Source: Desulfobulbaceae bacterium
GTDB lineage: Bacteria; Desulfobacterota; Desulfobulbia; Desulfobulbales; Desulfocapsaceae
Assembly (NCBI GenBank): GCA_008933635.1
Contig: WBUQ01000013.1
Span: 1-54,204, forward strand
Length of the DNA: 54,204 bases
Reading direction: 5' to 3'
A program made the position numbers and the translations under genes. The notes below the pieces were generated by a model, which was given only the letters and a program-made list of their open reading frames with translations, did not search any database and was not told the DNA's origin. This document shows, one piece after another, positions 119 through 33,549 of the stretch. Within the stretch, counting starts at the first letter, position 1. Every line of letters starts with the position of its first letter.

Positions 119-277
119 CGTTTGTACTTCCTCACTTTCCTGCCCCCCAACTCCACTCCGGAATACCTGTCCTTCCCGTTCCTGTTTTCTGGTGCCCGAT
201 ACAGCAATCTGCTGTATATGTTGATTTTCGACGATCAATCCCGCTGTCTTACTCAATCTCCCTCTATCTGCCCTGTC

Positions 278-1405
278 ATGAACGTATCTGGAAAACCGTA
301 TCGCACCATCTGGCTGGACCAGCACGATGGGAGGACGGTCAGGATCATCGATCAGCGCTCCCTCCCTCATCGGTTTGACATCGAATCGATAACCACATCC
401 ACACAGATGGCCGCTGCCATTTCTGAGATGCATGTCCGAGGTGCCGGCTTGATCGGTGCCGCTGCAGGATTCGGGATGTATCTCGCCAGCCTCCAGTTGG
501 ACGACAAATCTGTCGATTCATTCATGCTTGATATGCAGCACGCTGCGCAGATGTTGATCGCTACCCGCCCTACTGCTGTCAATCTCACCTGGGCTGTGCA
601 GCGGATCCTAGGCCGCATTTCCACGGTCGGCGGCACAGTTGCTGATAAGATTGCGATCTGCCGCGATACTGCCCAGATCATCGCTGATGAGGACGCGGAA
701 TTCTGCCGACGGATAGGTCAGCATGGCAAACGGCTGATCGAAGAAATCAGCCGCAAGAAAAGTGGTAAAGCGGTCAATATCCTCACCCACTGCAATGCCG
801 GCTGGCTGGCCTTTGTCGATTACGGTACAGCTACCGCACCCATTTATGCCGCCTTCGACCAGGATATCGACCTCCATGTGTGGGTTGATGAAACCCGGCC
901 GAGAAACCAGGGAGCCAGCCTCACCGCCTGGGAACTTGCCCAGCACGGTGTCCCCCATACTGTGATCGCGGATAATACCGGAGGTCACCTCATGCAGCAC
1001 GGCCTGGTAGATCTGGTAATTACAGGTACGGACAGAACCACCCGTACCGGCGACGTGGCCAATAAGATCGGCACCTACCTCAAAGCCCTTGCAGCCATGG
1101 ATAATGGGGTGCCTTTTTATGTTGCTCTCCCCTCCTCCACCTTCGACTGGAAGATCAGTGACGGAGTGAAGGAGATACCAATCGAAGAACGCAACAGTGA
1201 CGAAGTCAGATACATCCAGGGACTCTGCAATGGCGAATTGCTAACTGTACTGATCACGCCCGAATCGAGCAATGCCGCCAATTACGCCTTCGACGTGACT
1301 CCAGCGAGACTCGTCACCGGCCTGATCACCGAAAGAGGCATCTGCAGCGCATCTGAAGAAAGCATTCTCAGCCTCTACCCCGAAAAGCGAGAGGATCGTA
1401 TTTGA
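278..1405 (+). CDS. mtnA: S-methyl-5-thioribose-1-phosphate isomerase
   Basis: This 375-residue protein belongs to the MtnA/eIF2B-alpha-like isomerase family. The family converts 5-methylthioribose 1-phosphate to 5-methylthioribulose 1-phosphate in salvage of methylthioadenosine. The family signatures are visible: an N-terminal VRGAGLIG-type motif (usually RGAPAIG), the catalytic Cys at about 172 in THCNAGWLA, and the catalytic Asp at about 252 in GTDRTTRTGDVANKIGTY. The ATG at 278 is chosen because family proteins begin about here; an in-frame ATG at 220 would add 19 residues without similarity. No clear Shine-Dalgarno sequence precedes it. The next gene, 141 bases downstream, is a class II aldolase that could use the product. 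No MTA phosphorylase or MTR kinase gene is in the window. Confidence 0.92.
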   Translation: MNVSGKPYRTIWLDQHDGRTVRIIDQRSLPHRFDIESITTSTQMAAAISEMHVRGAGLIGAAAGFGMYLASLQLDDKSVDSFMLDMQHAAQMLIATRPTAVNLTWAVQRILGRISTVGGTVADKIAICRDTAQIIADEDAEFCRRIGQHGKRLIEEISRKKSGKAVNILTHCNAGWLAFVDYGTATAPIYAAFDQDIDLHVWVDETRPRNQGASLTAWELAQHGVPHTVIADNTGGHLMQHGLVDLVITGTDRTTRTGDVANKIGTYLKALAAMDNGVPFYVALPSSTFDWKISDGVKEIPIEERNSDEVRYIQGLCNGELLTVLITPESSNAANYAFDVTPARLVTGLITERGICSASEESILSLYPEKREDRI

Positions 1406-1546
1406 TTCAACCTCGAAGTTTTCAGAATTTTTCGCTGCCGTAACAATGCGGAGTTCTTGTGCCAACAACATATTGGATGCATACCTTCACATTTTAGGCG
1501 GCAATTTCCCAGATATTTTACAATTTTCTTTCATCCAGGTAAATCC

Positions 1547-2212
1547 ATGTCCCTCCTTCTCGCAAATGAACGTGAACAGATCGTCACTTTCGGTCGCAAA
1601 CTGCTTGAGCAAGGTCTGACGAGGGGAACCAGTGGCAACCTCAGTATCTTCAATCGCCGGGAACGGCTCATGGCCATAAGCCCCAGTGGTCTCGACTACC
1701 TGCTTACATCTGCCGAGGATGTCGTCGTCACCGATCTTGAAGGCCGGATTGTTGACGGAGCGAGGAATCCCTCTTCGGAACGGGCTCTGCATACGATTAT
1801 CTATCAGAACAGGGATGATCTTTCTGCCGTAGTCCATACTCATTCGTCCTTCAGCACTGTTCTCAGTTGCCTGGGCTGGGAACTGCCAGCCATTCACTAC
1901 ATGATCGCTCTTTCGGGACCGACGGTAAGATGCGCTGAATACGCCACCTTCGGCTCCCAGCAACTGGCTGTCAACGCCTTGGCAGCCATGCGTGACCGTA
2001 ATGCGGTGTTGCTTGCCAACCACGGCCTGCTCACAGCTGGTTGCAATCTGGCATCGGCCTTTCATATAACAACTGAAATTGAATTCTGCGCTGAAATTTA
2101 CTGGCGTTGTCGATCCGTTGGTCAACCAGTACTCCTTGACCAAGCCGAAATGAGTCTGATGAAGGAAAAATTCCGGACTTATGGTCAAATCATTTCAGAT
2201 ACTGAGATATGA
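1547..2212 (+). CDS. Class II aldolase, probable 5-methylthioribulose-1-phosphate aldolase
   Basis: This 221-residue protein is a zinc-dependent class II aldolase/epimerase of the FucA/AraD family. The N-terminal phosphate-binding GTSGNLS motif is present. The zinc ligands can be placed at His97 and His99 (VVHTHSS) and His159 (ANHG), with the catalytic acid at Glu78 (PSSERALH). Members of this family cleave sugar phosphates to dihydroxyacetone phosphate and an aldehyde. Because the gene follows mtnA, its likely substrate is 5-methylthioribulose 1-phosphate, as in the described DHAP shunt (Ald2). That assignment is inferred from context; fuculose or rhamnulose phosphate aldolase remains possible. 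The ATG at 1547 starts the conserved domain and is preferred over longer in-frame versions. Confidence 0.85.
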   Translation: MSLLLANEREQIVTFGRKLLEQGLTRGTSGNLSIFNRRERLMAISPSGLDYLLTSAEDVVVTDLEGRIVDGARNPSSERALHTIIYQNRDDLSAVVHTHSSFSTVLSCLGWELPAIHYMIALSGPTVRCAEYATFGSQQLAVNALAAMRDRNAVLLANHGLLTAGCNLASAFHITTEIEFCAEIYWRCRSVGQPVLLDQAEMSLMKEKFRTYGQIISDTEI

Positions 2213-2399
2213 TCAGCAGCCAATCGCTTCTCTTCGGCGTGTTGACGTCTGCAGAAATCCGGTTCGTCATGTCACCATGGCCTTCCCTGACCGAACACTC
2301 GGTTTGCTGGTCAAATGGCATCTTGACGCCCTCCCGGGCAATCAAGTACTTTTGCTGTGTGTTCCTTGACTCACTCCCATAATTTCAACTGAGATATTG

Positions 2400-3425
2400 A
2401 TGCCTCAGCTCACCCCGTTTACCATACTGGTTCTTGCCGCAGGCAAAGGCACCCGGATGAAATCTTCCAGAGCCAAGGTTCTGCATGAAGTATTCCATGT
2501 GCCGATGATTCACCATGTCCTGAATGCCGTTCTCCCGCTCGAGCCATCCCGTGCCATTGTCATTGTCGGGCATCAAAAGCAAGAAGTGCGAAAAGTACTG
2601 CAGGATTTCCCGGTTGAATTCGTCACCCAGGAAAATCAGCTGGGTACAGGCCATGCCGTGCTGGCCACCGAACCCTTTCTTACCGATATCGAGGGAGTAG
2701 TCATGATTGTCTGCGGTGACACCCCACTTATCCGGTCAAGCACACTGCAGGAGATGCGCCGACGGCACCTGGATAGTCAGGCCACCCTAACCCTCATGAC
2801 CACAATACTCGATAATCCAACCAATTACGGACGCATTATTGAGAATGGGAATGACGGTGTCGCCGGGATCGTCGAGGAAAAGGATGCAAGCCCCGAGCAG
2901 AAAGCCATCAAGGAGATAAATGCCGGTATATACTGCGTTGACAAGAAATTCCTGTTTCAGGCCTTACACCAGGTTGGAACGAATAATAGTCAAGGCGAGA
3001 TGTATCTCACCGATATCGTCGCTCTTGCCGTGACTGCCGGCCATTGTGTCGAGCGTTTTTTCACTTCGGCCGCCCAGGATGTGCTCGGGGTCAATTCCCG
3101 GGTCGAACTAGCTGCTGCCCACATGGAGATCCAGAAACGACGTAATATCGGTCTGATGCAGCAGGGCGTGAGCATGCACAACCCGGAAACAGTTATCGTC
3201 TCGGCAGAATCCACAATCGGGCGTGACAGCCTGCTGACGGCGGGCGTGCAGATCCTGGGAAGCAGCAGGATCGGCGAATCATGCCGGATCGAACCCGGAG
3301 TCATCCTCAAGGACTGCGCTGTCGGAGACAATGTCGTGATTGGGCCCTACTGTTGCATGGAAGGGTGTACTATCCCAAATGGAACGGTTGTAGGACCTTA
3401 TTGCAGGGAATATACGGGGAACTGA
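2400..3425 (+). CDS. GlmU-like UDP-GlcNAc pyrophosphorylase without the acetyltransferase half
   Basis: The first 230 or so of 341 residues match the uridylyltransferase domain of GlmU: LAAGKGTRM nucleotide-binding loop, the Lys-containing AKVLHEV segment, GTGHAV, and GDTPLI. This domain makes UDP-GlcNAc from GlcNAc-1-phosphate and UTP. The remainder forms only a few left-handed hexapeptide turns (IGRDSLL, IGESCRI, VGDNVVI) and stops where full-length GlmU (about 456 residues) continues into the acetyl-CoA site. It should therefore be a monofunctional uridylyltransferase or act on a related sugar phosphate. I saw no GlmU-like continuation in the 257 bases downstream. ATG at 2400 is preferred over the preceding TTG. 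A full glmU or separate acetyltransferase may exist elsewhere. Confidence 0.85.
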   Translation: MPQLTPFTILVLAAGKGTRMKSSRAKVLHEVFHVPMIHHVLNAVLPLEPSRAIVIVGHQKQEVRKVLQDFPVEFVTQENQLGTGHAVLATEPFLTDIEGVVMIVCGDTPLIRSSTLQEMRRRHLDSQATLTLMTTILDNPTNYGRIIENGNDGVAGIVEEKDASPEQKAIKEINAGIYCVDKKFLFQALHQVGTNNSQGEMYLTDIVALAVTAGHCVERFFTSAAQDVLGVNSRVELAAAHMEIQKRRNIGLMQQGVSMHNPETVIVSAESTIGRDSLLTAGVQILGSSRIGESCRIEPGVILKDCAVGDNVVIGPYCCMEGCTIPNGTVVGPYCREYTGN

Positions 3426-3682
3426 ACGATGCTGTTTTCAGCAGAGCAGTCCTAGTTGAACGAGTAGACCGCTGCATGATGCCTTTGACTACAGTTTCTC
3501 TCAAGTTTCGCGGCAGAGCAAGTATTGGAAAGACGGTAATCAGACACACCCGTTGTGAGCGAACCAAATCTTTCCATGACGAAACCAAAACCTCATGAAA
3601 GTTGTTGCATTTTCATTACAATATCGATTTCATACGCATAGTTTTCAATAATTCGCTGACAGCACAAAGACGGAGCCAAACC

Positions 3683-4972
3683 ATGTCCAACCTGAAAACC
3701 ATGTACTCGACCATCCTCGGAGATCATTTCCCGATGGAGATGACCATTTCCTTAGGTGACCAGAAACTTGTATACCGCAAGCGCACATGGAAGATCCCCC
3801 AGGAGGATGGCAGTTTTGATGAACGCGGCGTCCGATATGGCGAAAACCCAGACCAGGAGGCCGCCCTGTATGAGTTGGTGAACGGCAACCTGATCCTTGG
3901 CGGATGCGCCTTCATCGAACCAGGGAACGGTCTCGTTTCCGCGATCCAGGTCGAGGATATGCTCCAGGTAGGTAAACACCCTGGGAAGATAAACTTGACC
4001 GATATTGACAACGGCCTGAACATCCTCAAATATCTTATGGACAAACCTGCTGCAGTCATCCTCAAGCATAACAACCCTTGCGGTGCTGCTTACGGAAACA
4101 GCCTGGCCCATGCATTCAACCGGGCGCTGCGTTGCGACCGAATCGCAGCCTTTGGCGGAGCAGTCGTTATGAGCCGGCCCTGCGACACGGATACTGCCGA
4201 ATTGCTGGCCTCTAACTATCTTGAAGTGGTCTGTGCGCCTGATTTCGAGGCGGGTGCTCTGGACATCCTGAAAAAAAGCAAAAACCTGCGAATCATCCGG
4301 ATAGCGGCTATCGACCGCCTGACCGAGTTCGAGAAATTCCGTTTTGTCGATTTCAAGAGCCTCATCGACGGCGGTATCATTGTCCAGCAATCGGCCGTCA
4401 ATTCAATCCGCAAACCTTCCGATCTGAAACCGGCCGTGGCTTCCTGGCAGGGCAAAGAATTCCGCTGCGAACGGCAGCCCAACCAGCGGGAGATCGAGGA
4501 CATGCTTTTCGGCTGGGCAGTGGAGCATGGCGTGACATCCAATTCCGTACTGTATGTCAAGGACGGATGTACTGTCGGTATCGGTACCGGGGAACAGGAC
4601 CGGGTCGGAGTCGCCGAGATAGCCGTGCACAAGGCATATATCAAGTATGCGGATATTCTCTGCTTTGACAAGCATGGTATCGCCTATGCGGATCTGGAAC
4701 TGGCAATCAACAAGGGAGAGCGAAATGTTGCTGAAAAGCAGGAAATCGATTCACAGGTACGCAAAGACCGAGGTGGAATCCCAGGGGCGGTGATGATTTC
4801 TGACGCCTTTTTCCCATTCCGGGATGGAGCCGATGTTGGTATCAGACAAGGGGTTTCTGCCATTCTTCAGGCTGGTGGATCGCTAAGAGATTTTGAGACT
4901 ATCCAGGCATGCAACGAAGTAGAGCCAAGGGTAGCGATGATGTTCACGGGGCAACGATCATTCAAGCATTGA
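3683..4972 (+). CDS. purH: Stand-alone AICAR transformylase (PurH C-terminal domain)
   Basis: This 429-residue protein corresponds to the phosphoribosylaminoimidazolecarboxamide formyltransferase domain of PurH. It transfers a formyl group from 10-formyltetrahydrofolate to AICAR in the penultimate step of IMP synthesis. The catalytic Lys-His pair is visible at 128-129 in KHNNPCG, and the late motifs SDAFFPFRDG and AGGSLRD are present. The N-terminal MGS-like IMP cyclohydrolase domain (about 200 residues) of the usual bifunctional PurH is missing. IMP cyclohydrolase must then be encoded elsewhere. GGAG lies 7 bases before the chosen ATG, which fixes the start. dgkA follows 16 bases downstream. 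Confidence 0.9.
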   Translation: MSNLKTMYSTILGDHFPMEMTISLGDQKLVYRKRTWKIPQEDGSFDERGVRYGENPDQEAALYELVNGNLILGGCAFIEPGNGLVSAIQVEDMLQVGKHPGKINLTDIDNGLNILKYLMDKPAAVILKHNNPCGAAYGNSLAHAFNRALRCDRIAAFGGAVVMSRPCDTDTAELLASNYLEVVCAPDFEAGALDILKKSKNLRIIRIAAIDRLTEFEKFRFVDFKSLIDGGIIVQQSAVNSIRKPSDLKPAVASWQGKEFRCERQPNQREIEDMLFGWAVEHGVTSNSVLYVKDGCTVGIGTGEQDRVGVAEIAVHKAYIKYADILCFDKHGIAYADLELAINKGERNVAEKQEIDSQVRKDRGGIPGAVMISDAFFPFRDGADVGIRQGVSAILQAGGSLRDFETIQACNEVEPRVAMMFTGQRSFKH

Positions 4973-6755: not shown

Positions 6756-8999
6756 ATGATCAATAGTGAAGATATTTACACTCAGATAAAGAGATCCGGT
6801 AATCTGCCGACACTTCCTGAAATACTTCTCAAGCTTCTTGAGGCATGTGACAATGAAGCAACTCCACTTTCAGAAGTTGCCGCAATTATAAGTAAAGACC
6901 CTGCCTTAAGTTTCAGGGTTCTCCAACTTGTCAATTCTTCATATTACGGTCTTCGCAGCACCTTTACCGGGGTTGAGCAGGCCGTTGTATATCTTGGAAC
7001 GAACCGAATAAAAAACATCGCCATAACCACCAGTATCCATCAAGTTTTTGAGCGCAAACGATTCAGGGCTTCAAAACACTTCAAAATCAGTAGATTCTGG
7101 TGGAATTCACTTGCTTGTGCCACCTTGGCACGGCGGATCGCACAACGCATTCTTTATCCTAATCCTGATGAAGCCTATCTCTCCGGCCTGATGCACGACA
7201 TCGGCCGCCTGATACTCGTTTCGACGTTCCCCAAGGAACATGATTCATTCCTTCTTGAAGTAGAAGATGTCCAAAACGAGCTTTGGGCTGAAAAGCAGCT
7301 GATCGGCATCACCCATTGTGAAGCTGGCGCTTGGCTTGTGAATAATTGGAAACTGAATTCCTTGATGGCGGATGCGATACGGTACCATCATGAATCGCTG
7401 GAGCGGGTTAAGGATGCATTTCCACTTGTTCAAATTGTATACCTGGCTAACCTCTTACGAGAGAATGACGAAATCAGCGAACATGAAAATGAGGCTGGAA
7501 AACAGCTTTTCGGGCTCGGTTTCTCAAATCTGCAAGAGATTGTTGATGGTTCCGTTGAAGAAGTAGTAGCAATTGCCGAAAATTTGAACATCAATGTCAA
7601 GCCTCCAACTTCAAAGAGGAATAAGCAGGAAAAGCTCGACAATGAAAGCAAGACTAAAAATTTAACGATTGAAAATGTCGTCGACGTTGTAACGGATCTG
7701 AATGACAGCGGCTATAATGAAGACAGAGGACAGTCAGTTTTGGCATCCCGGATCAAAAGTGTCGCTTTATTGTCGGGTTTTCTCGAGAATCTCGTCCATG
7801 CTGCAGACATTGAAACCATATTTGCTGTTTTTGAACAGTCAATGAATGTTCTTTTCAATATTAACAATGTCCTCTTCTTTCTTCCTGATAGGGACGGAGT
7901 TTTGTTGAAAGGACGGACCTCGAAAGCGAACGACTTCAACCTTATCAGCCAAGCTCTTGTCCTTCCAATTCAAAGGAGCTCAAGTACTATAGTCAAATCT
8001 TATCTTAACTCCTCCGTTTCCTACCTGACGACAGACAATACCCATAATACCATCGCCGATGGACAAGTGATCGCAGCCTTCAATTGCTCTACAGTATATT
8101 TAGTCCCGATTGTCGCCAATAAACAGAGGGTGGGAGTTGTCCTTTTAGGGCTTCCTGAAAACATCAAGGCCTTGCCGCATAGCGACAGTCAATTGATTCA
8201 AGTCATTGCACAGCAAATGGGGATTTGTCTATTGCTTGAAGATATGCAGTCGAAAAAGACCGAGGAAATTGAGGCAGAAAGAGTTGCCGCCGTCTCAATG
8301 ACTGCTCGAAAATTTACTCATGAAATCAACAACCCACTCGGTATAATCACAAATTATCTGGCGACTATGCGCCTGAAGCTGGAGAAAGAAAGTGATGTAC
8401 ATGAAGAGATCGATATTATCAGTGAAGAAATTCGACGTATTAGTTCGATGGTAAACCAAATGGATCTGTTTTCGCAGACAGTTTCATACCGTATGGAATT
8501 AACTGATATCAACGCAGTGATCGACGATATTGTTCAGATCGTTAAAGAACCGCTTTTTGCAAAATCAGCCACAGTTATTACCTTCAAGCCTGGAAAAATG
8601 TTGCCCCATCTGTTGTCATCAGGAGATGCTCTCAAACAAGTTATTATCAACCTGATAAAAAACGCATCTGAGGCCATGGACAACGGTGGAGCTGTTGATA
8701 TCATAACAAAAGTTATCCATAACAGGACATCCGAGAACAACTCGACCGAGAAAAATGGCATTGAAATCCTCATAGAGGACAATGGACCAGGAATTCCGGA
8801 TTCGATTTTGACATCGCTATACAAGCCATTTGCAACAACAAAGAAAAATGGTCACTCAGGCCTCGGATTGTCTATAGTCAATAAGATTGTAAAAGATCTC
8901 GGTGGATCAATATCGTGTACAAGCAAGACCAATGTGGGGACATGTTTTTCCATTTTTTTACCCTTTGAAACAAAAGCGGCCAATTCAGCTGTGAAATAA
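6756..8999 (+). CDS. HDOD-GAF sensor histidine kinase
   Basis: This 747-residue protein has no signal peptide or membrane segment and should be cytoplasmic. Residues about 10-215 form an HDOD domain (LPTLPEILLKLLE start, LVNSSYYG, SGLMHDIGRLIL with an HD pair). About 330-490 is GAF-like. The DHp helix has the phospho-acceptor His at 522 (FTHEINNPLG), and about 600-740 is the HATPase domain (NLIKNASEAM, DNGPGIP, GHSGLGLS). HDOD domains are usually protein-interaction modules in motility, cell-cycle and cyclic-di-GMP circuits. The hybrid regulator/kinase gene starts one base after the stop, and a PilZ gene follows. The three probably form one operon. The signal is unknown. Confidence 0.9.
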   Translation: MINSEDIYTQIKRSGNLPTLPEILLKLLEACDNEATPLSEVAAIISKDPALSFRVLQLVNSSYYGLRSTFTGVEQAVVYLGTNRIKNIAITTSIHQVFERKRFRASKHFKISRFWWNSLACATLARRIAQRILYPNPDEAYLSGLMHDIGRLILVSTFPKEHDSFLLEVEDVQNELWAEKQLIGITHCEAGAWLVNNWKLNSLMADAIRYHHESLERVKDAFPLVQIVYLANLLRENDEISEHENEAGKQLFGLGFSNLQEIVDGSVEEVVAIAENLNINVKPPTSKRNKQEKLDNESKTKNLTIENVVDVVTDLNDSGYNEDRGQSVLASRIKSVALLSGFLENLVHAADIETIFAVFEQSMNVLFNINNVLFFLPDRDGVLLKGRTSKANDFNLISQALVLPIQRSSSTIVKSYLNSSVSYLTTDNTHNTIADGQVIAAFNCSTVYLVPIVANKQRVGVVLLGLPENIKALPHSDSQLIQVIAQQMGICLLLEDMQSKKTEEIEAERVAAVSMTARKFTHEINNPLGIITNYLATMRLKLEKESDVHEEIDIISEEIRRISSMVNQMDLFSQTVSYRMELTDINAVIDDIVQIVKEPLFAKSATVITFKPGKMLPHLLSSGDALKQVIINLIKNASEAMDNGGAVDIITKVIHNRTSENNSTEKNGIEILIEDNGPGIPDSILTSLYKPFATTKKNGHSGLGLSIVNKIVKDLGGSISCTSKTNVGTCFSIFLPFETKAANSAVK

Positions 9000-9000
9000 A

Positions 9001-10920
9001 ATGAGTTCCATGCCCAAAATTCTTCTTGTCGATGACGAAAAACGTTTCGTCAACAGTCTATGTGAGATCCTCAGGCACTATCGTTATCAATGCACTGTTG
9101 CGGTTACAGGAAATCAGGCTATACGGTTTCTCGAAGGCGACGAGTATGACATTGCCCTGTTGGATGTCAACCTTCCTGACATGTCAGGATGTGATATTCT
9201 GAATTTTCTCAGTACGTCGAAAATCATTACAACCTCTATCATGCTTACTGGAATCAACACTGTTGAAACCGCCGTTAGAGCCATGAAAATGGGGGCTTAT
9301 GATTTTTTAAGCAAACCTATCAATCACGAGCAATTGCTCAAAACAATAGACCAAGCTTACAAACATCACAGACTCTCTGAGGAATTAGCGGCAAGCGAGA
9401 AAAGGTTTCGAATATTGGTTGAGGCTTCATGCGAAGGTATTGTTGTTCATGAAAATGGCAGACTCATCGAGGCTAACAATCAGTTTTTTTCCATGTTTGG
9501 CTATTCATTTGAGGAACTGACAGAGGGCAGATTCCTTGACAAGATATTGTCCCCACATTCCTCTTTGAAAACTGACCAATGTATTGAAAATAATATATTT
9601 GGCAGATACGAACTTACCGGTATTAAAAAAAATGGAAAAGAATTCCCGCTTGAGGCTGCTTCACGCCTGATCAGCCATTTGGGCAAATCGGCGAGGGTCC
9701 TTGCACTCAGGGATCTTTCTGAAAGAGTTAGGGCGGAGGAGGAGAAACTCAACCTCCAGAGAAAACTAGCCAAAGCTAATAAATTGAAGGCATTGGGTTT
9801 AATGGCCGGATCTGTGGCCCATGATTTGAACAATATCCTGTCTGGCATCGTCAGTTATCCCGAATTACTGCTTTCCCAGATGGACAAATCAGACAAATTC
9901 TATAATGAGATTGCACGAATTCAGGATGCAGGGAAAAGAGCTGCTGCTGTAGTTGCCGACCTGGTGCTGCTGGCACGAGGTGGATCGGCATCTGCCAACA
10001 TTGAGAATATAAACGACATTATCCTTAGTCATCTGAGCTCAATTGAACACCGTGAACGTCTGGCAAATTATCCGAATGTCATTATTGAGACGAATCTCCA
10101 GAAAAATCTCTGGAATACATATTGTTCCCATCTGCATATTCATAAAATTTTGCTCAACCTCCTTGGTAACGCCCTCGAGGCTGTTCATGTAAATGGCCTG
10201 ATTAGGATAACTACTCAAAACTGCCAGTATTCTCACCCTGAAACATTTGAAGTTGATCGTGCTGCAGATCGGAATCAGAATTTTGTCAAGATAACCATGT
10301 CTGACAACGGTACAGGCATTCCTCCACAGGAAATCGATCACATCTTCGATCCATTCTATTCCACAAAAAAGCGTGGCAAAAGCGGAACTGGTCTCGGACT
10401 GTCAATTGTCTGGAATACTGTACAGCAATACAACGGATGGATTGAGGTCAAGAACAACAACCCAGGGGCAATATTTGAAATATTCTTGCCTGCTACTAGC
10501 GCCCAACCTGATTCAAGACAGAGTAATATCGTTGCTCGGCCACCTCGCGGCAATGGGGAGAAAATTCTGCTGATTGACGACTTGTCTGAGCAGAACGAGA
10601 CGATTTCGCAATTATTAACCAATCTTGGATACTCAACCCGATCCGTTGAGACTGGTGAAGCTGGAATCAATTATTTACAATCTCAGCCAGTCGACCTGGT
10701 CTTGCTGGATATGATAATGGGGGGAGGGATGAATGGTCGACAGACCTATGAAAAAATATTGAAAATCAGGCCTGGACAAAAGGCAATTATTATAAGTGGG
10801 TATTCAGAAAGCGAAGAAGTATTGAAAGCAAAAGCTTTGGGAGTATCACACTTTCTGGAGAAGCCTGTCACTCTGCCAGTTTTAGCTCTTGCGGTCAGGC
10901 AGGCGCTTTCTGGCATGTAG
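9001..10920 (+). CDS. Hybrid REC-PAS-histidine kinase-REC protein
   Basis: This 639-residue cytoplasmic protein has four modules. The N-terminal receiver (about 7-125) has its phospho-acceptor Asp at 55 (LLDVNLPD) and a late Lys (SKPI). A PAS domain spans about 130-250. A kinase core of the type lacking a classical HisKA loop has its His at 274 (VAHDLNNILSG) and an HATPase domain at about 365-495 (NLLGNALEAV, DNGTGIP, GTGLGLS). The C-terminal receiver has Asp570 (LLDMIMGGG). Such enzymes relay phosphate internally. The likely input is the HDOD kinase encoded immediately upstream, and a possible output is the PilZ protein downstream. There is no DNA-binding domain. Confidence 0.92.
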   Translation: MSSMPKILLVDDEKRFVNSLCEILRHYRYQCTVAVTGNQAIRFLEGDEYDIALLDVNLPDMSGCDILNFLSTSKIITTSIMLTGINTVETAVRAMKMGAYDFLSKPINHEQLLKTIDQAYKHHRLSEELAASEKRFRILVEASCEGIVVHENGRLIEANNQFFSMFGYSFEELTEGRFLDKILSPHSSLKTDQCIENNIFGRYELTGIKKNGKEFPLEAASRLISHLGKSARVLALRDLSERVRAEEEKLNLQRKLAKANKLKALGLMAGSVAHDLNNILSGIVSYPELLLSQMDKSDKFYNEIARIQDAGKRAAAVVADLVLLARGGSASANIENINDIILSHLSSIEHRERLANYPNVIIETNLQKNLWNTYCSHLHIHKILLNLLGNALEAVHVNGLIRITTQNCQYSHPETFEVDRAADRNQNFVKITMSDNGTGIPPQEIDHIFDPFYSTKKRGKSGTGLGLSIVWNTVQQYNGWIEVKNNNPGAIFEIFLPATSAQPDSRQSNIVARPPRGNGEKILLIDDLSEQNETISQLLTNLGYSTRSVETGEAGINYLQSQPVDLVLLDMIMGGGMNGRQTYEKILKIRPGQKAIIISGYSESEEVLKAKALGVSHFLEKPVTLPVLALAVRQALSGM

Positions 10921-25045: not shown

Positions 25046-25741
25046 TTACTTGACCCGCATCACCATCATGATGACAATCCCTGCTTCATACAACAAGTAG
25101 AGAGGGCCGCCCATCATCAGCATATTGACGACGTCCGGAGTCGGAGTCAGCATTGCCGCGATAACGGCGATAATAAGCAGGGCTACTCTCCGTTGCCGTT
25201 CAAAAAACCGCCGGGTACAGACACCTACCCGTGCCAGAAATATCATCATCAGCGGAAGTTCGAAGACTATGCCAAAAGCAAGGAAAAACACTGTCGTAAA
25301 GTTGACGAATTTGCTTATCGAAATGACCGGCTGCAACTCGGCGGAACCAAACCCAAGCAGGAATTTGATGCCTAGTGGCAGGGTAATGAAATAGCAGAAA
25401 AGAGTTCCCGCATAGAACAACAGACACGTAAAAAGAATGAAAAGAATCGTGTCCCTTCTCCTGACACCGAAAGGTTTGCCCATCGCCTGCCAGAAAAGGG
25501 TTGCAGCCCATGGCATCAGACTATAGATCGCCAGGAACAGTGAAAGTTTGACATGGGCGAGAAAGGGTTCCGCCACGGAAAAAAAATACAGTTTGTCAGC
25601 AAGATGAGATTGAAAGGTCTCAAGCAAGCGGGGCGATACGACGAAAATTCCTCCGGTCAGCCCGATAGTGGTGAGAACGAGAGTCCTGATCGTCCTGCGG
25701 AGTTCGACCAGCACAATCACGAGAGGGCTTTTTTCGGCCAT
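25046..25741 (-). CDS. tatC: Sec-independent translocase protein TatC
   Basis: This 231-residue polytopic protein has six hydrophobic segments and recognisable TatC features: an N-terminal LVELRRTIRT (usually HLxELRxR), FELPLMMIFLARVG before helix 5, and LTPTPDVVNMLMMGGPLYLLYE near the end. The usual P-D in helix 5/6 loop is kept. TatC binds twin-arginine signal peptides and exports folded cofactor-containing enzymes, such as periplasmic molybdenum and nickel enzymes. The Met at 25741 fits the family N-terminus better than the upstream frame start (25786). The N-terminal signature is slightly degenerate (VLVELRR). No tatA is in the window. Confidence 0.88.
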   Translation of the reverse strand: MAEKSPLVIVLVELRRTIRTLVLTTIGLTGGIFVVSPRLLETFQSHLADKLYFFSVAEPFLAHVKLSLFLAIYSLMPWAATLFWQAMGKPFGVRRRDTILFILFTCLLFYAGTLFCYFITLPLGIKFLLGFGSAELQPVISISKFVNFTTVFFLAFGIVFELPLMMIFLARVGVCTRRFFERQRRVALLIIAVIAAMLTPTPDVVNMLMMGGPLYLLYEAGIVIMMVMRVK

Positions 25742-25910
25742 GAAGAAGACATTTTCTGAAAAAGGGAAGACACGCAAACGAGGCAATGCAAGATAGCAAA
25801 AGCAGAATGGAAAAGCAATTTGTTAGAGGTTGCTTTCAACATGCAGCCGTGATAAACAAGGCAGGGAAACCGTTCTCCTCCACCATAACCATATTCTCAA
25901 ACCTACAGCC

Positions 25911-27192: not shown

Positions 27193-27241
27193 CTGCGGCA
27201 AAGTGCTTCGCCTGCCGCAGCTCACACTTTCGGCAGGCGAA
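27193..27241. terminator. Alternative hairpins between serS and mobB
   Basis: Two mutually exclusive inverted repeats overlap here: CTGCGGCA/TGCCGCAG (27193-27220) and the perfect 11-bp TTCGCCTGCCG/CGGCAGGCGAA (27207-27241). They lie between two convergent genes and overlap the mobB 3' end. No T run follows on either strand, so terminator function is only suggested by position. Confidence 0.4.
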
Positions 27242-27881
27242 TCCGAAGTTCGATCTCCTCAATCTGGTCAGTAAACTTCAGAGATCCGACGAATCCATGG
27301 ACAGTGCTCGCCAGAACTTCCTGAACAAAATTCTTCAAAGGCATCCTCCTGCCATTGACGAATAAGACCGCCCTCTCCTGTTTGTTTCGCTGCTCGAGAA
27401 GAAATTTTTTCTCAATGAAACGGGCAATGGCCTCACTCTCATCCAGACGAAAAACATTCTCGCCTTCCACGCCTTCGAGATCCGTTGCAATCGCGATTAT
27501 GCCATGCACTTTATTGCGCAGCATGCGTTCTCGGTCTCGGAGCACTTCGATCTTCGGCACCCTGCGGGCATCCTTAAAACCTTCACCGATGACAATATCG
27601 ACATCCGAGAAATACCGATACGAGAGTGCAACCAGAGGTAGATTGTCATTGCCGGCCTGCAGGACCATCTTGTCAGGGCCAATGAACATGACCGAGTCGG
27701 CACCGGCCATCCTGTGTTTGGCCGTGTCCGTGCCAGGGCTATCAAATGCGATGCCTGGTTCCTTGCTCGATTTGACAACCGCGACACGATATCCAGCCGC
27801 CTTAAGATGACTGACAACCTGGCTGGCCAGTGTGGTCTTGCCACTGTCGTGCCAACCAACGAAGGTTACAATAGGTGTCAT
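27222..27881 (-). CDS. mobB: Molybdopterin-guanine dinucleotide biosynthesis protein MobB
   Basis: This 219-residue GTP-binding protein helps MobA convert molybdopterin to its guanine dinucleotide form. The P-loop GWHDSGKTT is at residues 9-17, and the MobB motifs VVKSSKEP and GFKDARRVPKIEV follow. It carries a C-terminal extension of about 50 residues (FVNGRRMPLKNFVQEVLAST) seen in many anaerobe MobB proteins, so it is longer than the E. coli protein (about 175). The ATG at 27881 is next to the P-loop; the frame extends upstream without similarity. fdhD lies 5 kb away and may serve the same molybdo-enzymes. Confidence 0.93.
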   Translation of the reverse strand: MTPIVTFVGWHDSGKTTLASQVVSHLKAAGYRVAVVKSSKEPGIAFDSPGTDTAKHRMAGADSVMFIGPDKMVLQAGNDNLPLVALSYRYFSDVDIVIGEGFKDARRVPKIEVLRDRERMLRNKVHGIIAIATDLEGVEGENVFRLDESEAIARFIEKKFLLEQRNKQERAVLFVNGRRMPLKNFVQEVLASTVHGFVGSLKFTDQIEEIELRIRLPKV

Positions 27882-28059
27882 AGTTACCTCAAAAATCCTT
27901 CTATCGATCACGGCCCTGCATGAGGCCAATTCTCCGGTTAAATTGGCAAACGCCCACCGGGCAGATGGCTGGGGACGGCCTCCTGTCAACATGAGCCGAC
28001 AGACAACCAGCGTTGGAGGAAAAATCGGAAAGAACCCTCATGTTCCGTAAGGCGAAGCA

Positions 28060-28752
28060 CTAGTTTTCAGTAGGCGTTCCACCCACATTGGCAGGTGCAT
28101 TCTTGCTGAAACTCTCCTTCTCCGTCCATAGCACCGCGCGGCGGGTCAGCTCAACTGCACTCTTCAGACAGAGTTTCTGTTTTATCCTGTCACGGTATGT
28201 GCCGATGGTCTTGATACTGAGCTTCATCCGTTCCGCAATGGCCCGGGTCGACAACCCCTGCCCGATGAGTCGGAAAACCTCGAGTTCCCTGTCAGTCAGC
28301 ACTTCCTCCGACTGGGCGCCCTGAGAATCGGGATTAACCTGGAATTTGTCGAGAAGATAGGACATCATATTTGGGCTGACATGGATTTTCCCCCGAAGGA
28401 TGTTGCGGATAGCCTGAATGATCGACTCCGAGGCCTCTTTCTTCATCACATAGCCCCTGGCTCCGGCACGAATCGCCCGCTCTGCCCAGACCGACTCATC
28501 ATGCATCGACAGGACCAGAACCAGCACGCTGTTCGGCCCGCTGGCAATTTCCTTGACCAGATCCAAACCGTTTTCCTGGGCCAGCGATATATCAATGATC
28601 GCAAGATCCGGCTTCTTCTCGATCAGTTCCCTCCTCGCCGAACGGATGTCTTCTGCCACCCCGCAGACGGTAAAATCTTCCTCCTGGTTCAGCAGTTCTT
28701 CCATTCCCATGCGAAAGACCGGATGATCATCGACGATGAGTATCTTTGACAT
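28060..28752 (-). CDS. NarL/FixJ-family response regulator
   Basis: This 230-residue regulator has a receiver domain (1-120) with acidic pocket VDDH at 8-10, phospho-acceptor Asp54 (IIDISL) and Lys in MKKEA. A LuxR-type HTH lies at about 155-220 (LTDRELEVFRLIGQG, STRAIAERMKLSIKTIGTYR). It would activate transcription once phosphorylated by the NarX-type kinase encoded 43 bases upstream. AAAGGAAC precedes the ATG, which fixes the start at 28752. A 15-residue tail rich in Asn/Pro follows the HTH. Confidence 0.94.
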   Translation of the reverse strand: MSKILIVDDHPVFRMGMEELLNQEEDFTVCGVAEDIRSARRELIEKKPDLAIIDISLAQENGLDLVKEIASGPNSVLVLVLSMHDESVWAERAIRAGARGYVMKKEASESIIQAIRNILRGKIHVSPNMMSYLLDKFQVNPDSQGAQSEEVLTDRELEVFRLIGQGLSTRAIAERMKLSIKTIGTYRDRIKQKLCLKSAVELTRRAVLWTEKESFSKNAPANVGGTPTEN

Positions 28753-28795
28753 TTTTGTTCCTTTTTCCAAGCAGAACCAGCATATCCCGACGGGA

Positions 28796-31294
28796 TCAAT
28801 CGATCTCCACGGCCATGTTCCGTTCACCCACCGAAGGCACCTGGCGATTCCCATACTGTCCTTGTGCCTCACCTGAGAGCGATACAACGGTCCCGCCACG
28901 CCCCCCGGGGGTTATCGATAAAGTCGCACCGATCGCCTTTGCCCTGTACTTCATGGTATGCAACCCCATTCCCTGATGCTGGGCGGCCTCGGCAATACCG
29001 TCGCCATCATCGCTGACGGTGACGTTCAGTCGGCTGGCATCCTTGGCTATCGAGATCATGATATTCCTGGCCTTGCCATGGCGGGCAGCATTGAACACCG
29101 CTTCCCGGATAATATAATAAATATGGGTCGCCTCATTGTTGTCGATCGCCTCCTTCGGGCTGTCGAACATGAGCGTGCATTCAACGTAAAAGAGGCTCTC
29201 GACTTCGACGATCAATTCCTCGATCGCTGCCTCGAGTCCCTGCTCGATAATATGCACAGGATACAAACCCCTGGCCAGCCGCCTTGTCTTTTCAATCGCC
29301 TCCCGGATCAGATTGCGGATCCGTTGCAGCTGCCTGGCCTTGTCGGGGGCATCGACTTCCAGCTTTTTCTGCAGGACCTTGGCCAGCATTTCAACGCCGC
29401 TGAGATGGGAACCGAGGTCGTCGTGCAGGTCCCGCCCAACCTTGCTCCTCTCTTCCAGACTCACGGCCATGATCTGCCTCTCCAGCCGCGCCATCTCGAT
29501 TTCGGAACAGGTTTTCAATACATGCAGCCACATTCCCTCAAGCAACATCGCCATCTGTCTTATATCTGAATTGTCGTAGTTCGAGCTGTTGTTACAGACT
29601 CCCGCCACCACCACGATCTTGCCCCCGTTATAAATCGGTACATCCAGATGCCGCTTCACCGGAATAATGTAGGGATAGACCAGATTGCCCTCTCCACCGT
29701 CAAAGGCGTTGTTGATTATCGCCTTCTTCTGGGTCACCGCAACACCGGGAAGGCCGCCGTCCTCGACCCGCCTGGACTCATTGAGATGGTAAGGCTCTTC
29801 ACCCACTGTCCGTTGGTGTATTGAAAAGAAGCTGCACAGGGAGAGATGCGCCTGGCTGGTGTTGACAAGGGCCAGATAGCCAGCCTCACTCCGGGTTATC
29901 TGGACAATGCGCTGCATGATGAAATCGTACTTATCCTGCAGGGAATATTTTTCCATCATCCCCAGACGCAGCAGGGTATCGAGCCGTAACTCATCCCGAT
30001 GCAGCAGGAATTCCTTCTGGATCCGGTCGTCGATCATGCGGTTCGCCAGCTTGCCGAGATCCTCAAACTCGGCGAAGGCGAGATCGGTATTCTCAATTTT
30101 CACCTTTGAATCTGCAGCTTCCCGAAAGAAATTGGTAAAGAGACTGATACCGTGCTTGATTTTCAGCGAATAAAAATAGGCTATCAGTAACAGCAGAGAC
30201 ACAGCGAGCATGAACAGCAGGACGAAGAGGAAGGCATTCTTGAAGGCGATGCGGATATAGGTCCTGGTTTCATCGACAATGGCATTCTCCATCTCGTCCA
30301 TGTTCATGCTGGCGACAAAAACCCAGCCCCATTCCTTGAATGCCTTGACATAGCTGAGCTTCTGGTTCACCCGACCTTCGGCCGGTTTCGAGACGGCATA
30401 GCTGACATAATCCTCATGGTCGCCGCTCACTCCCGCTCGCCACATCTGCTCTCCGAACGGCTCGCCCTTGCTGCCGACCAGATCTTTGATCGAACGGCCG
30501 ATAAGCCGTTCATCGCGATTGCAGATGATTGTGCCATCGACCCGAAATCCGAAGACCTCGCCGTCCCTGCCGAAATGCATCTTCTGGACCTGAGCCAGGA
30601 CATCCTCCTGAATCAGTTTCTCCATGTCATCGATATAGATACCGGCGCCGATAAACCAGTCGAACGGCTTGAAATATTTAACGAAAGACACTTTTTGATA
30701 ACTGGAGCCGAAATATTCCGGCTTTGCCCAGTTATACCGGTAGAGGCCGGCCCCCTTTTCCTCGATTATCTTGATTATATCGCCGATAACATCGATTCCC
30801 GCCTCACTGCGGAACTGCTGCCTGCTCTTGCCTTCGAAGAAGGGATCGTCGGCAAACAGATCGATAACCTGATCTTTCACCCGGCCGGCAAAGTAATATC
30901 CGCGTTCGTTGTTCCAACGGATGGGACGGAGAATTTCAAGCACCATCAGTCGCAGTTCATCGACACTTTTCTCATCCTTGTATTGGCTGTAGATGTGCGA
31001 AGCAGTGGTATAGGCGGTCTGGACCTTCTGGCGGATCTCGTTTTCAATCAGGATATCAGTCTGCGAGCGCTTGTACTGAATGAAATCCATGACCCCGCCG
31101 AGTTCTTCCTGCAGCCTGTCCCGGTACTGCTTGTGGTAGTTTTCACGGATATTGCTGATGCTCTCCTGATAGGCTTCGTATTCATTGAAGGCCCAGAACG
31201 TGCCGGTAAACAAACCAAGTGAGAGGATGACCAGGAGCGAGGCATAAAAGGGGGCGGATGACAAGGATATCCGTGTGGATCTAGACATTACCAC
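28796..31294 (-). CDS. Cache-GAF sensor histidine kinase of the NarX (HisKA_3) class
   Basis: This 832-residue inner-membrane kinase has a first membrane helix at about 12-32. A large periplasmic region with two Cache-type halves follows (RGYYFAGRVKD near 145; VKYFKPFDWFIGAGIYIDDME near 225; VKAFKEWGWVFVASMNMDEME near 325), then a second helix (about 350-375), a GAF domain (about 445-600), a HisKA_3 box with His624 (GRDLHDDLGSHLSG) and an HATPase domain (REAVFNAARHGKA, DDGDGI, GMGLHTMKYRA). Cache domains bind small metabolites. The start is GTG 31294 or ATG 31288. It sits between a periplasmic binding protein gene and a LuxR-type regulator gene, all on one strand. Confidence 0.93.
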   Translation of the reverse strand: MVMSRSTRISLSSAPFYASLLVILSLGLFTGTFWAFNEYEAYQESISNIRENYHKQYRDRLQEELGGVMDFIQYKRSQTDILIENEIRQKVQTAYTTASHIYSQYKDEKSVDELRLMVLEILRPIRWNNERGYYFAGRVKDQVIDLFADDPFFEGKSRQQFRSEAGIDVIGDIIKIIEEKGAGLYRYNWAKPEYFGSSYQKVSFVKYFKPFDWFIGAGIYIDDMEKLIQEDVLAQVQKMHFGRDGEVFGFRVDGTIICNRDERLIGRSIKDLVGSKGEPFGEQMWRAGVSGDHEDYVSYAVSKPAEGRVNQKLSYVKAFKEWGWVFVASMNMDEMENAIVDETRTYIRIAFKNAFLFVLLFMLAVSLLLLIAYFYSLKIKHGISLFTNFFREAADSKVKIENTDLAFAEFEDLGKLANRMIDDRIQKEFLLHRDELRLDTLLRLGMMEKYSLQDKYDFIMQRIVQITRSEAGYLALVNTSQAHLSLCSFFSIHQRTVGEEPYHLNESRRVEDGGLPGVAVTQKKAIINNAFDGGEGNLVYPYIIPVKRHLDVPIYNGGKIVVVAGVCNNSSNYDNSDIRQMAMLLEGMWLHVLKTCSEIEMARLERQIMAVSLEERSKVGRDLHDDLGSHLSGVEMLAKVLQKKLEVDAPDKARQLQRIRNLIREAIEKTRRLARGLYPVHIIEQGLEAAIEELIVEVESLFYVECTLMFDSPKEAIDNNEATHIYYIIREAVFNAARHGKARNIMISIAKDASRLNVTVSDDGDGIAEAAQHQGMGLHTMKYRAKAIGATLSITPGGRGGTVVSLSGEAQGQYGNRQVPSVGERNMAVEID

Positions 31295-31344
31295 TCACTC
31301 TCCCGGCGTCCCAAAGATGCCTCTCCTGTCAGAGCGCCAGCTTG

Positions 31345-32526
31345 TCATTCCTTCACCTTTTTCAGATCTGGATTTATTTCTGTGAGATAGACAGCATCCA
31401 TTCCTTGATGATCCATCGGTCCGAACTGGAGGGTCACTCCACCCAGGTCGAAGGTCCCTACCTGTTCCATCGTTGTGATGAACTTCTCCCGGGTCAGTTC
31501 GCCCGGCACCTTGGCAGCAATCTGAGCGAAGAGTTTGCCGGCCATATATCCCTCAAGAGAGGTGAAGCTGATCGGGGCATCGTGCTGGTACTTGCCCATC
31601 GCATCGGTATACTCATGGATCAGCGGCAACTCGGTATCCTGCGGATAGGGGACAACCTGGGAGACAATGACATCACTGCCATATCTGCCGAGGGCGTTCT
31701 TCAGGCTTTCGGTGCCGACGAAGGAGATGTTGCAGAACAGCAGTTTTTTGGACGTTCTCGCTTTGCTCAGCTTGATGAATTCGGCACAGGCCGAGTAAGT
31801 TCCGGCCAGCACGACCGCTTCGGGATCGGCCTCGAGCACATCCGTCAACCCGCGCAGGACGGCAACGGTATTCCGCTCATAACTACCTTTGGCCACAAGA
31901 CTCAGCCCCCGGCGCGCCAGGGCCAGCTCGATCCCCTTCAGGCCGTCGAGACCATAGCTGTCATCCTGGTAGAAGCAGGCAATTTTCCTGATCTTCTTCT
32001 TGTCGATGAGATACGCCGCGAGCCTCTCCATCTCCTGGTAGTAGCTGGCGCGAACATTGATCACATGCTTGCGGAAAGGCTGGCGCAGGACCTCGGCACC
32101 GGTGAAAGGCGCAAAGAACGGGACCTTGTGTTCCTCAATGAGCGGGAGAACAGCGTTCGATGTCGGGGTGCCCACTTCGCCGATCAGCATGAAGATCGCT
32201 TCATCCTGTATAAAAGCCTTGGTATTGCGTACCGCCCGGTCGGGCTCGTAACCGTCATCCCGACTGATCAGGAGGATATCCCTGCCGTCCACTCCACCTT
32301 CATCATTCACTTTGGAAAAAGCGGCGAGGAGTCCGGCACGCAGTTCGAGACCGAGATTTTTGGACGGACCTGTCAGGGCGCAGGACTGCCCAAGGAGAAT
32401 GGGTGTTTTCTCCTCCTGCGGGGACTGAGCCAGGATGTTGGAAGATTGAGCGGAAAGAAGCAGCACCAAGGCGAAGGCTGTTGATATTCTCCGGGTTATC
32501 GTCCGGATAACGCCTGAAATCGTCAT
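31345..32526 (-). CDS. Periplasmic ligand-binding protein (branched-chain amino acid type)
   Basis: This 393-residue protein has a signal peptide (cleavage after about residue 33, NILA|Q) and the type I periplasmic fold of LivJ/AmiC-like receptors: ILLGQSCALTGPSKNLG, GRDILLISRDDGYEPDRAV, CFYQDDSYGLDGL, and EGYMAGKLF late. It binds a small solute in the periplasm. No permease or ATPase gene is adjacent. It lies 50 bases upstream of the Cache kinase gene, so it probably presents ligand to that kinase instead of feeding an ABC importer. That role is inferred. ATG 32526 starts the signal peptide; the upstream frame is not part of it. Confidence 0.9.
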   Translation of the reverse strand: MTISGVIRTITRRISTAFALVLLLSAQSSNILAQSPQEEKTPILLGQSCALTGPSKNLGLELRAGLLAAFSKVNDEGGVDGRDILLISRDDGYEPDRAVRNTKAFIQDEAIFMLIGEVGTPTSNAVLPLIEEHKVPFFAPFTGAEVLRQPFRKHVINVRASYYQEMERLAAYLIDKKKIRKIACFYQDDSYGLDGLKGIELALARRGLSLVAKGSYERNTVAVLRGLTDVLEADPEAVVLAGTYSACAEFIKLSKARTSKKLLFCNISFVGTESLKNALGRYGSDVIVSQVVPYPQDTELPLIHEYTDAMGKYQHDAPISFTSLEGYMAGKLFAQIAAKVPGELTREKFITTMEQVGTFDLGGVTLQFGPMDHQGMDAVYLTEINPDLKKVKE

Positions 32527-32784
32527 CTTGAGCTGACCTGTTCGCACCGCATTCTCCAGTTTTCCACCGTCATCGTATGATCTGCCGACGCGTGATCGCG
32601 AGCAGTCCCTGCTGCAACAGTACAATATCGTCCAGGGGGAGACAACTGCCAAAAAATACCCGAAAGACACCTGCTGTCCAGCGAAACAGTTGAAATCGAA
32701 CGCGAGTCTCTATAGGATGTACTTTCCTTTTAAAGCAGGCGGCCTCCCGGCCATCCAGGCACACTCCAGGTACCGATCGAAATC

Positions 32785-33549
32785 ATGAGCAACGTCACCC
32801 TCTCCCATGTCACCACCGTCATCACAACACATGGACGCCACCAGCAGGAGGAACAGGTGGCTATCGAAACCCCGTATACGGTAGCGCTGAACGATGAACC
32901 AATCGGCGCATCGATGGTCCTGCCGATCGGCCTGGCCGAGTTCGGGGTCGGTTTCCTCTTCGGCCAGGGGTATATCCGCAAACCGGAAGAGGTGCGGGAG
33001 GTGATCGTCTGCCCGGAAGGCAGAATCGCCGTCTATGCCGATGTGGTATCGACCCAGCCGAAGGAAGTCATCATCACCTCCGGATGCGGCGGCACCGGCA
33101 AGATCCCTCGGGAGATGCTGGAAGGGGCATTCGATCCGCTGCAGGAGTGTACGTTCACGATTGATGAATTGCGGGCTTTCATCACCCGGGTTCAGCAGAT
33201 TTCAACGCTCGGCAGGGAAACTCACTGCGTCCATGGCTGCGGCCTGTGGGCCGATGGCGGAGTCAGGGTGTATTATGAAGACGTAGGCCGTCACAACGCC
33301 GTCGACAAGGTCCTGGGCGCCATTCTCCTCGGCAAGGCGCCGGTCAGAGGCGCCATCTACACGACCGGGAGACTGACGTCGGATATGGTGCTCAAATGCG
33401 CCCGGATGGGTATCCCGATCGTCCTGTCCCGAACGGCGACCTCCTCCCTCGGCCTGGCCATCGCCAGACAGGCCGGCATGACGCTGGGGGCTTACGCCAG
33501 GGCTGATCGCCTCAATGTTTTCAACGCTCCTGAGCGCATAATCGGTTGA
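32785..33549 (+). CDS. fdhD: Formate dehydrogenase accessory sulfurtransferase FdhD
   Basis: This 254-residue protein belongs to FdhD, which carries sulfur from IscS to the molybdenum cofactor of formate dehydrogenase. Family motifs are present: TPYTVALNDEPIG near the start, TSGCGGTGK where the sulfur-carrying Cys loop sits, HGCGLW, EDVGRHNAVDKVLG, and the late SRTATSSLGLAIA. The Cys loop has one Cys, where E. coli has CxxC; the first Cys of that pair is the essential one in the literature I recall. No formate dehydrogenase gene is in the window. It converges with ddl. Confidence 0.95.
   Translation: MSNVTLSHVTTVITTHGRHQQEEQVAIETPYTVALNDEPIGASMVLPIGLAEFGVGFLFGQGYIRKPEEVREVIVCPEGRIAVYADVVSTQPKEVIITSGCGGTGKIPREMLEGAFDPLQECTFTIDELRAFITRVQQISTLGRETHCVHGCGLWADGGVRVYYEDVGRHNAVDKVLGAILLGKAPVRGAIYTTGRLTSDMVLKCARMGIPIVLSRTATSSLGLAIARQAGMTLGAYARADRLNVFNAPERIIG

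Follow-up and report, generated by a model that had tools for sequence, protein, structure and literature searches.

A transporter-free binding protein, histidine kinase and response regulator set in Desulfobulbales that probably controls formate dehydrogenase

Regulatory systems in which a periplasmic protein is read by a kinase controlling a molybdoenzyme include the TMAO system of E. coli, TorT-TorS-TorR (L198). TorS is a hybrid kinase, TorR is an OmpR-type regulator, and TorT belongs to another family of periplasmic binding proteins. The NarX-NarL and NarQ-NarP systems combine a HisKA_3-type kinase half with a NarL-type regulator, and E. coli FdnG is a NarL target. The AioXSR, ArxXSR, and ArrXSR systems comprise an arsenic-oxyanion binding protein, a kinase, and a regulator located beside the molybdoenzyme that they control (PMC5908839).

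The window, meaning the whole analyzed stretch of 54,204 nucleotides, is contig C148 of a 240-contig, 4.5-Mb Desulfobulbaceae assembly (genome G000). It contains three adjacent genes, here called the triad, with two neighbors of interest:

31345..32526, minus strand: PBP, a Peripla_BP_6 periplasmic binding protein of 393 aa with a signal-like helix at the N-terminus
28796..31294, minus strand: HK, a sensor histidine kinase of 832 aa with a GTG start, arranged from N- to C-terminus as TM, periplasmic dCache_2, TM, GAF_2, HisKA_3, HATPase_c
28060..28752, minus strand: RR, a NarL/FixJ-type response regulator of 230 aa with a receiver and a LuxR-type HTH
27222..27992, minus strand: mobB, with a Pfam match starting at residue 41
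32785..33549, plus strand: fdhD, an accessory sulfurtransferase of FDH, transcribed divergently from the PBP gene

PBP and HK are separated by 50 bases and HK and RR by 43, and neither a permease nor an ABC ATPase gene was detected beside the triad by Pfam and NCBIfam annotation of its neighbors in the window. The coordinates and Pfam matches thus confirmed the preliminary description, which had reported three same-strand genes with these gaps and no permease or ATPase. It had also proposed a genome survey for the same triad, and the PBP-HK-RR order was found repeatedly across the family, so the arrangement is not due to chance. PBP belongs to Peripla_BP_6 (E 5.8e-55; 187.8 bits against a gathering cut-off of 31.7), HK matched dCache_2 (E 2.1e-77; residues 39-336), GAF_2 (E 7e-10), HisKA_3 (E 5e-14), and HATPase_c (E 1e-9), and RR matched Response_reg plus GerE/LuxR. 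The phospho-acceptor His and ATP-binding motifs of HK and the receiver Asp/Ser/Lys of RR looked intact by eye, judged against what we take to be the catalytic motifs. The mobB Pfam match starts only at residue 41, and the true start of this gene is therefore probably near 27881. It was noted that fdhD also adjoins the triad in many relatives; the other neighbors in the window are serS, ddl, and glcD. Between the PBP gene and fdhD, the stretch GTACATCCTATAG...TTTCAACTG (window 32688-32730) is conserved in the genus (L075-L078) and, on the fdhD strand, resembles a sigma-70 promoter that would serve this gene. A tatC gene is located close to the triad at 25046-25786; because periplasmic FDH is expected to be Tat-exported, this may represent a functional neighborhood.

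Compared with the TMAO system, the likeness extends to distant PBP relatives, which pair with proteins having a TorS_sensor_domain, whereas the Desulfobulbales kinase has dCache_2 in place of the TorS sensor domain. HK shares its transmitter type and RR its NarL type with the nitrate systems. However, the NCBIfam scores over the HK transmitter were 107.6 bits for NarQ (cut-off 553) and 95.1 for NarX (cut-off 578), and RR scored 118 bits for NarL, also far below its cut-off. HK is therefore not a NarX/NarQ nitrate sensor, and its sensor half consists of dCache_2 plus GAF with a PBP and lacks a nitrate P-box. The best NCBIfam match was MctS-MctR (NF052443 and NF052445; kinase 168 bits, regulator 135 bits), far below the cut-offs of 700 and 300 bits, with the best kinase stretch in the transmitter half. 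Like AioXSR, the triad is a PBP-HK-RR set without a transporter that lies beside, and by our inference controls, a molybdopterin enzyme operon. AioX is PhnD-type and its promoters are RpoN-type, whereas the triad has a Peripla_BP_6 protein, a sigma-70-like promoter, a dCache_2-GAF-HisKA_3 kinase, a NarL-type regulator, and a selenocysteine FDH as its enzyme; since its PBP is not PhnD-type, the triad is not part of the AioXSR family proper (PMC5908839). We found no description of such a PBP-HK-RR/FDH system in the open-access literature, and a term search of a Desulfovibrio vulgaris regulator-target paper returned no FDH target (PMC3333781). The triad is a real, conserved system that resembles AioXSR and TorTSR and is apparently unreported in the open-access literature.

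Our main reading, to which we assign a probability of roughly 0.72, is that PBP, HK, and RR form a three-component system controlling formate dehydrogenase. A small periplasmic solute would load PBP, and the loaded PBP would act on the periplasmic dCache_2 region of HK, while the Cache and GAF domains may contribute direct inputs to the kinase. HK would phosphorylate the NarL-type RR, which would in turn bind CYTAC-type boxes immediately ahead of a weak sigma-70 promoter. The FDH operons activated in this way would be the adjoining cluster in many relatives and, in this genome, the unlinked fdnGHI operon. Three patterns recovered by comparing genome sequences underlie this reading: a conserved transporter-free PBP-HK(-RR) unit, its linkage to a selenocysteine FDH, and the occurrence of a promoter element in step with the triad.

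The first of these patterns concerns whether PBP serves transport or signaling. LivH/LivM, whose adjacency would mark a Liv transporter receptor, were found within four genes of PBP at 0/80 loci (the best 80 of at least 566) and at 0/38 loci of relatives, while the same profiles detected LivH/LivM beside 4/6 other LivJ-like loci of this genome. ABC ATPase-like matches occurred within four genes at 4/80 PBP loci (best 80 of at least 566). PBP also scored only 40.6 bits against PRK15404, for which the NCBIfam cut-off is 477. Both PBP (E 1e-40) and HK (E 1e-60) were present in 27/37 family genomes and both were absent from the other 10 (27/0/0/10; Fisher p 3e-9, with phylogeny ignored). With genes that are adjacent, conserved together, and free of a transporter, the triad has the gene arrangement of SBP-kinase-regulator three-component systems, a working class that takes in AioXSR and TorTSR and in which the loaded SBP would bind the sensor domain of the kinase. 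The preliminary description had regarded PBP as dedicated to signaling and had named its clustering with transport components in relatives as the contrary outcome; the genome comparison did not encounter such clustering at the 80 and 38 loci and supports the dedicated role, as does the persistence of PBP with its sensor partner.

This persistence is illustrated by a second PBP-kinase pair in the same genome:

C203 (L068), 136-4336: PBP and the dCache_2-GAF half kept, with a different transmitter half

Kinases related to that of L068 are of the PAS-HisKA type, lie next to xseA, and have no triad-type regulator gene. Because the L068 pair retains PBP and dCache_2-GAF with the transmitter swapped, PBP follows the sensor half rather than the output half of the kinase. 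The preliminary description proposed PBP as a co-receptor giving two possible ligand inputs plus GAF, and PBP may contact the kinase in this way. Caution is warranted, since adjacency does not guarantee that an SBP and a kinase work together: in one study, two adjacent neighborhoods of Pseudomonas aeruginosa gave no detectable interaction, and 10/11 earlier characterized pairs were gene neighbors (PMC11113362). It was also noted that in genome G015 (L096, L113) PBP and the kinase lie on separate contigs, where PBP comes after the Fer4-rich and NarJ-like genes that usually belong to the FDH cluster, and the kinase and RR precede FDH; locus L124 holds both sets in one row.

The partners of PBP relatives were then tallied among the best 80 loci of at least 566. 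Within 400 bases on the same strand, the partner was a kinase at 33 loci, a chemoreceptor at 12, a SpoIIE-type phosphatase at 1, and a nucleotide cyclase at 1; the rest comprised 2 loci with an opposite-strand signaling protein, 3 contig edges, and 28 without a recognized signaling partner. The relatives beside chemoreceptors, the SpoIIE-type phosphatase, and the nucleotide cyclase derive from Planctomycetota, Alphaproteobacteria, and others, and a TorS-type sensor domain is present in some cases. Loci with such signaling neighbors are as follows:

L138, L140-L144, L146, L151, L152, L154-L156, L174, L176: PBP relatives with signaling neighbors

On the basis of these neighborhoods, it is possible that the PBP relatives constitute a cross-phylum receptor family devoted to signaling. 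Several Desulfobacterales records (L157, L160, L161, L165, L167) have a PBP relative without a recognized signaling partner, oriented divergently to another PBP gene. A PBP relative of ~40% identity with other partners was carried by six genomes of the wider order, and three of these loci (L107, L108, L111) were near an FdnG-like or FdhD-like gene. The closest named relative among the best 80 of at least 566 was that of Desulfoprunum benzoelyticum (84% identity), a cultured organism that possesses the triad (L115), which places the window's genome among the sulfate reducers of the Desulfobulbales.

We assessed the ligand sites through structure models and alignments. The AlphaFold2 model of PBP (pLDDT 94.3) has a LivJ-type fold with 4KV7 as the nearest solved structure (TM 0.86); the HK model was weaker (pLDDT 77.8). 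LivJ Thr102 and Glu226 are presumably the contacts that hold the amino-acid head group, and the aligned PBP positions are Gly and Ser in 62/62 family members, which makes an alpha-amino-acid ligand unlikely and differs from what a LivJ-type receptor would carry. The membrane-distal Cache half of HK is similar to 4K08 and 5G4Y, carboxylate-binding chemoreceptor domains. By eye in the alignment, HK Y133, Y187, W189, and K201 match four of six 4K08 acetate contacts, and 4K08 His107 and Trp96 are replaced by Phe in the window HK. We guess that formate or some other small carboxylate serves as the ligand.

The four conserved contacts also lend themselves to a different interpretation, in which HK and RR control FDH through direct ligand binding by Cache or GAF and PBP is a co-transcribed orphan transport protein or scavenger. 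Direct binding of small carboxylates by dCache_2/sCache_2 domains has precedent in two reports: 4K08 contained bound acetate and its authors state that formate would fit (PMC3831638), and the dCache domain of Campylobacter Tlp1 binds formate (PMC10294657). We consider this interpretation unlikely, however, given the coincident losses of PBP and HK (27/0/0/10), the lack of a permease near any of 118 PBP loci (80 best of at least 566, plus 38), the PBP relatives adjoining chemoreceptors, a SpoIIE phosphatase, a cyclase, and other kinases, the retention of PBP beside the sensor half despite a swapped transmitter, and the Phe residues at the 4K08 His107 and Trp96 positions.

The second pattern is genomic linkage. 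In relatives, the triad commonly precedes, on the same strand, an FDH cluster encoding a Fer4-rich protein, a NarJ/TorD-like chaperone, a selenocysteine FDH alpha, and FdnH-like and FdnI-like subunits. Since gene calls were made with our own longest-ORF script and labels came from home-made profiles, labels such as Fer4x are provisional. The alpha chain in relatives is split by an in-frame TGA at the selenocysteine position of E. coli FdnG, and the Sec motif is found in the genome's own locus too. Read through the TGA, the B-type alpha is a formate dehydrogenase-N alpha by TIGR01553 (1407 bits in L080 and 1375 bits in the genome's own L204; cut-off 814), whereas the A-type alpha can only be called FDH-like at 502 bits against a 666 cut-off on TIGR01591.

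Type-1 HK loci (n = 27) and FDH loci per genome were counted by hand. FDH alpha was encountered within 12 kb of 15/27 type-1 HK loci in the family; four further contigs end within FDH accessory genes, and eight loci are without FDH, four of them on contigs long enough to judge. The enrichment set (n = 19) combined the 15 linked loci with the four unlinked loci on long contigs (G000, G001, G004, G017) and left out eight short-contig loci (G002, G003, G006, G011, G020-C185, G022, G034, G036). In this set, 15 linked loci were observed against 0.18 expected under uniform placement; the choice of loci favors the linkage claim somewhat, and the excess is far larger than this. The genome's own fdnGHI operon is unlinked to the triad (C233, locus L204). 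FDH does not need the triad, as it is present in the triad-less G007, G009, G010, G026, and G033. The preliminary description had placed fdhD and mobB at the flanks, which stands; it had assigned no target genes, and this is superseded by the FDH operons, which linkage and the promoter element indicate as likely targets.

The third pattern is this promoter element. Counting of 8-mers gave the first lead, CCCTACAA before FDH genes, and a 30-bp element, CnTACnnAAnAAAAGGn7CnGATTT, was common to the RR-FDH operon regions in other genomes. A matrix was built from 19 sites in 21 deduplicated regions, all from other genomes, with one site (L077) from the window's genus. Of 40 listed promoters, 27 have a CYTAC box at a distance of exactly 23 bp on the upstream side of the element, and this box is often one arm of a TGTAGG-N7-CCTACA palindrome; 29 have a -10 hexamer resembling TATAnT exactly 20 nt past the element. 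Scanning of ten loci of the window's own genome (320,276 positions, both strands) gave 33.0 bits before the unlinked fdnG, 22.3 bits for the window element in second place, and 9.4 for the third best. The features in the window are as follows:

28022..28051, minus strand: triad-linked promoter element in the RR-mobB gap, 22.3 bits
28070..28074, minus strand: upstream CCTAC half-box, 23 bp before the window element

A -10 hexamer was not recognizable at the expected position 20 nt after the window element, and the local mobB promoter may therefore be dead. A whole-genome pattern search allowing two mismatches found a third site in this genome (C103:10406-10435; 28.3 bits) and returned 7 matches against 8 for a reversed control, so the pattern alone is not specific. 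The matrix scores separate the seven matches into three at 33.0, 28.3, and 22.3 bits and four at 7.9 or less. No element at 17 bits or above was found at the PBP promoter that would suggest autoregulation, and simple palindrome counting gave nothing convincing. The NarL-type consensus heptamers were judged by eye to be a poor fit to the element. Rfam at gathering threshold detected no riboswitch in the FDH or mobB leaders across nine loci, and its only hit in the window was a 5S rRNA fragment.

Across genomes, the element was found within 900 bp past RR in 36/44 triad records (the window included; records with at least 150 bp beyond RR), and was absent from this interval in L103, L091, L094, L116, L127, L128, L129, and L130. 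In L091 it occurs only further downstream of RR, and L094 and L127 come from one genome. Records L075-L112 and L115-L136 overlap in genomes, and 35 site-bearing triad records hold 28 distinct 30-mers. As a control, 728 tiles of 1,250 bp from triad-less loci included none reaching 17 bits (maximum 15.1). Over 3.88 million positions (L068, L075-L194, and the window), all 41 matches at 17 bits or above were in records with a triad-type kinase, nearly all just past RR. In the window's genus, the element comes after RR even at loci where mobB, rather than FDH, is next.

Unlinked promoters were also compared. The element was present at orthologous B1-class fdnG promoters in 11/12 triad-bearing genomes vs 0/5 triad-less genomes (Fisher p 0.001, with shared ancestry ignored), the exception being G029; the 11/12 includes the RR-adjacent fdnG of G021, and two of 26 loci (L263, L225) lacked a usable region and were uncounted. 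B2-class fdnG carries the element when beside the triad (L079) and lacks it when unlinked (0/4), even though these genomes have the triad. The A2 gene of G016 is without the element despite a triad in that genome. This distribution would be expected of a regulator and its site, and RR is the predicted element-binding protein, probably acting as an activator rather than a repressor.

The element could instead be the site of another regulator, with the triad and FDH genes merely neighbors by inheritance. It does sit in FDH promoters, linkage could drag it along, and RR binding is a prediction. Nevertheless, we regard this explanation as quite improbable: the element occurs at the unlinked fdnG of triad-bearing genomes and is absent from the orthologous fdnG of triad-less ones, the B2-class fdnG has it beside the triad (L079) and in 0/4 unlinked cases, and in the window's genus it follows RR even before mobB. 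A role for PBP as a conventional transport receptor for branched-chain amino acids or amides, with its permease elsewhere, is very unlikely and was rejected as a main reading, since its LivJ-type fold and family and the other LivJ transporters in the genome are outweighed by the absence of a permease near any of 118 loci (80 best of at least 566, plus 38) and the Gly/Ser replacement of the LivJ Thr102/Glu226 contacts in 62/62 family members.

If the preferred three-component reading holds, it would matter in several respects. Formate is a main currency between anaerobes, and to our knowledge formate-responsive gene regulation, such as that by FhlA, is cytosolic. With an extracellular sensor linked to formate and a defined promoter code, formate foraging by sulfate reducers would become testable in a cultured organism. 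An element that tracks a sensor across genomes provides a rule for predicting the targets of an unstudied regulator, even unlinked ones, and the finding points to a cross-phylum PBP family apparently devoted to signaling. A broader scheme is offered tentatively, as a possibility that we would not favor as a whole: the family would have given up transport and would supply receptors that plug into many kinds of output (kinases, chemoreceptors, a PP2C-type phosphatase, and a nucleotide cyclase). In Desulfobulbales, the receptor would read extracellular formate or a related C1-C3 carboxylate, and the FDH regulon driven by HK-RR would be small, with a small hairpin RNA as a further member in one genus.

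This hairpin was characterized in the window's genus. In four sister genomes, a terminator-type hairpin follows the element after RR; it is well formed in G002, G003, and G004 (14-bp stem, 12-nt loop, T-run), and in G001 (L076) the 3' arm is changed and the predicted fold is weak. The loop is CACCCGUCUGCC in the C103 copy and in L075, L077, and L078 just after RR. Two copies were located in the genome of the window:

Window 27938..27983, minus strand: decayed hairpin copy
C103:10320-10435 (L262), minus strand: triad-type promoter plus well-formed hairpin

The C103 hairpin stands alone, flanked by a LysR-type gene and a small gene that are both encoded on the opposite strand. The hairpin pattern gave one match in each of five genus genomes and 0 in the other 53 searched, and a pattern search for complementarity of the loop to 16S rRNA gave no match in the genome's own assembly. 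The hairpin could be a small RNA or a mere relic terminator.

Elsewhere in the window, positions 1-73, where the contig starts, carry the 3' portion of a 5S rRNA; the assembly probably broke here at an rRNA operon. The region 6756-10920 encodes an HDOD-GAF-histidine kinase followed by a receiver-PAS-kinase-receiver hybrid, and its G+C content (~43%) is lower than that of the rest.
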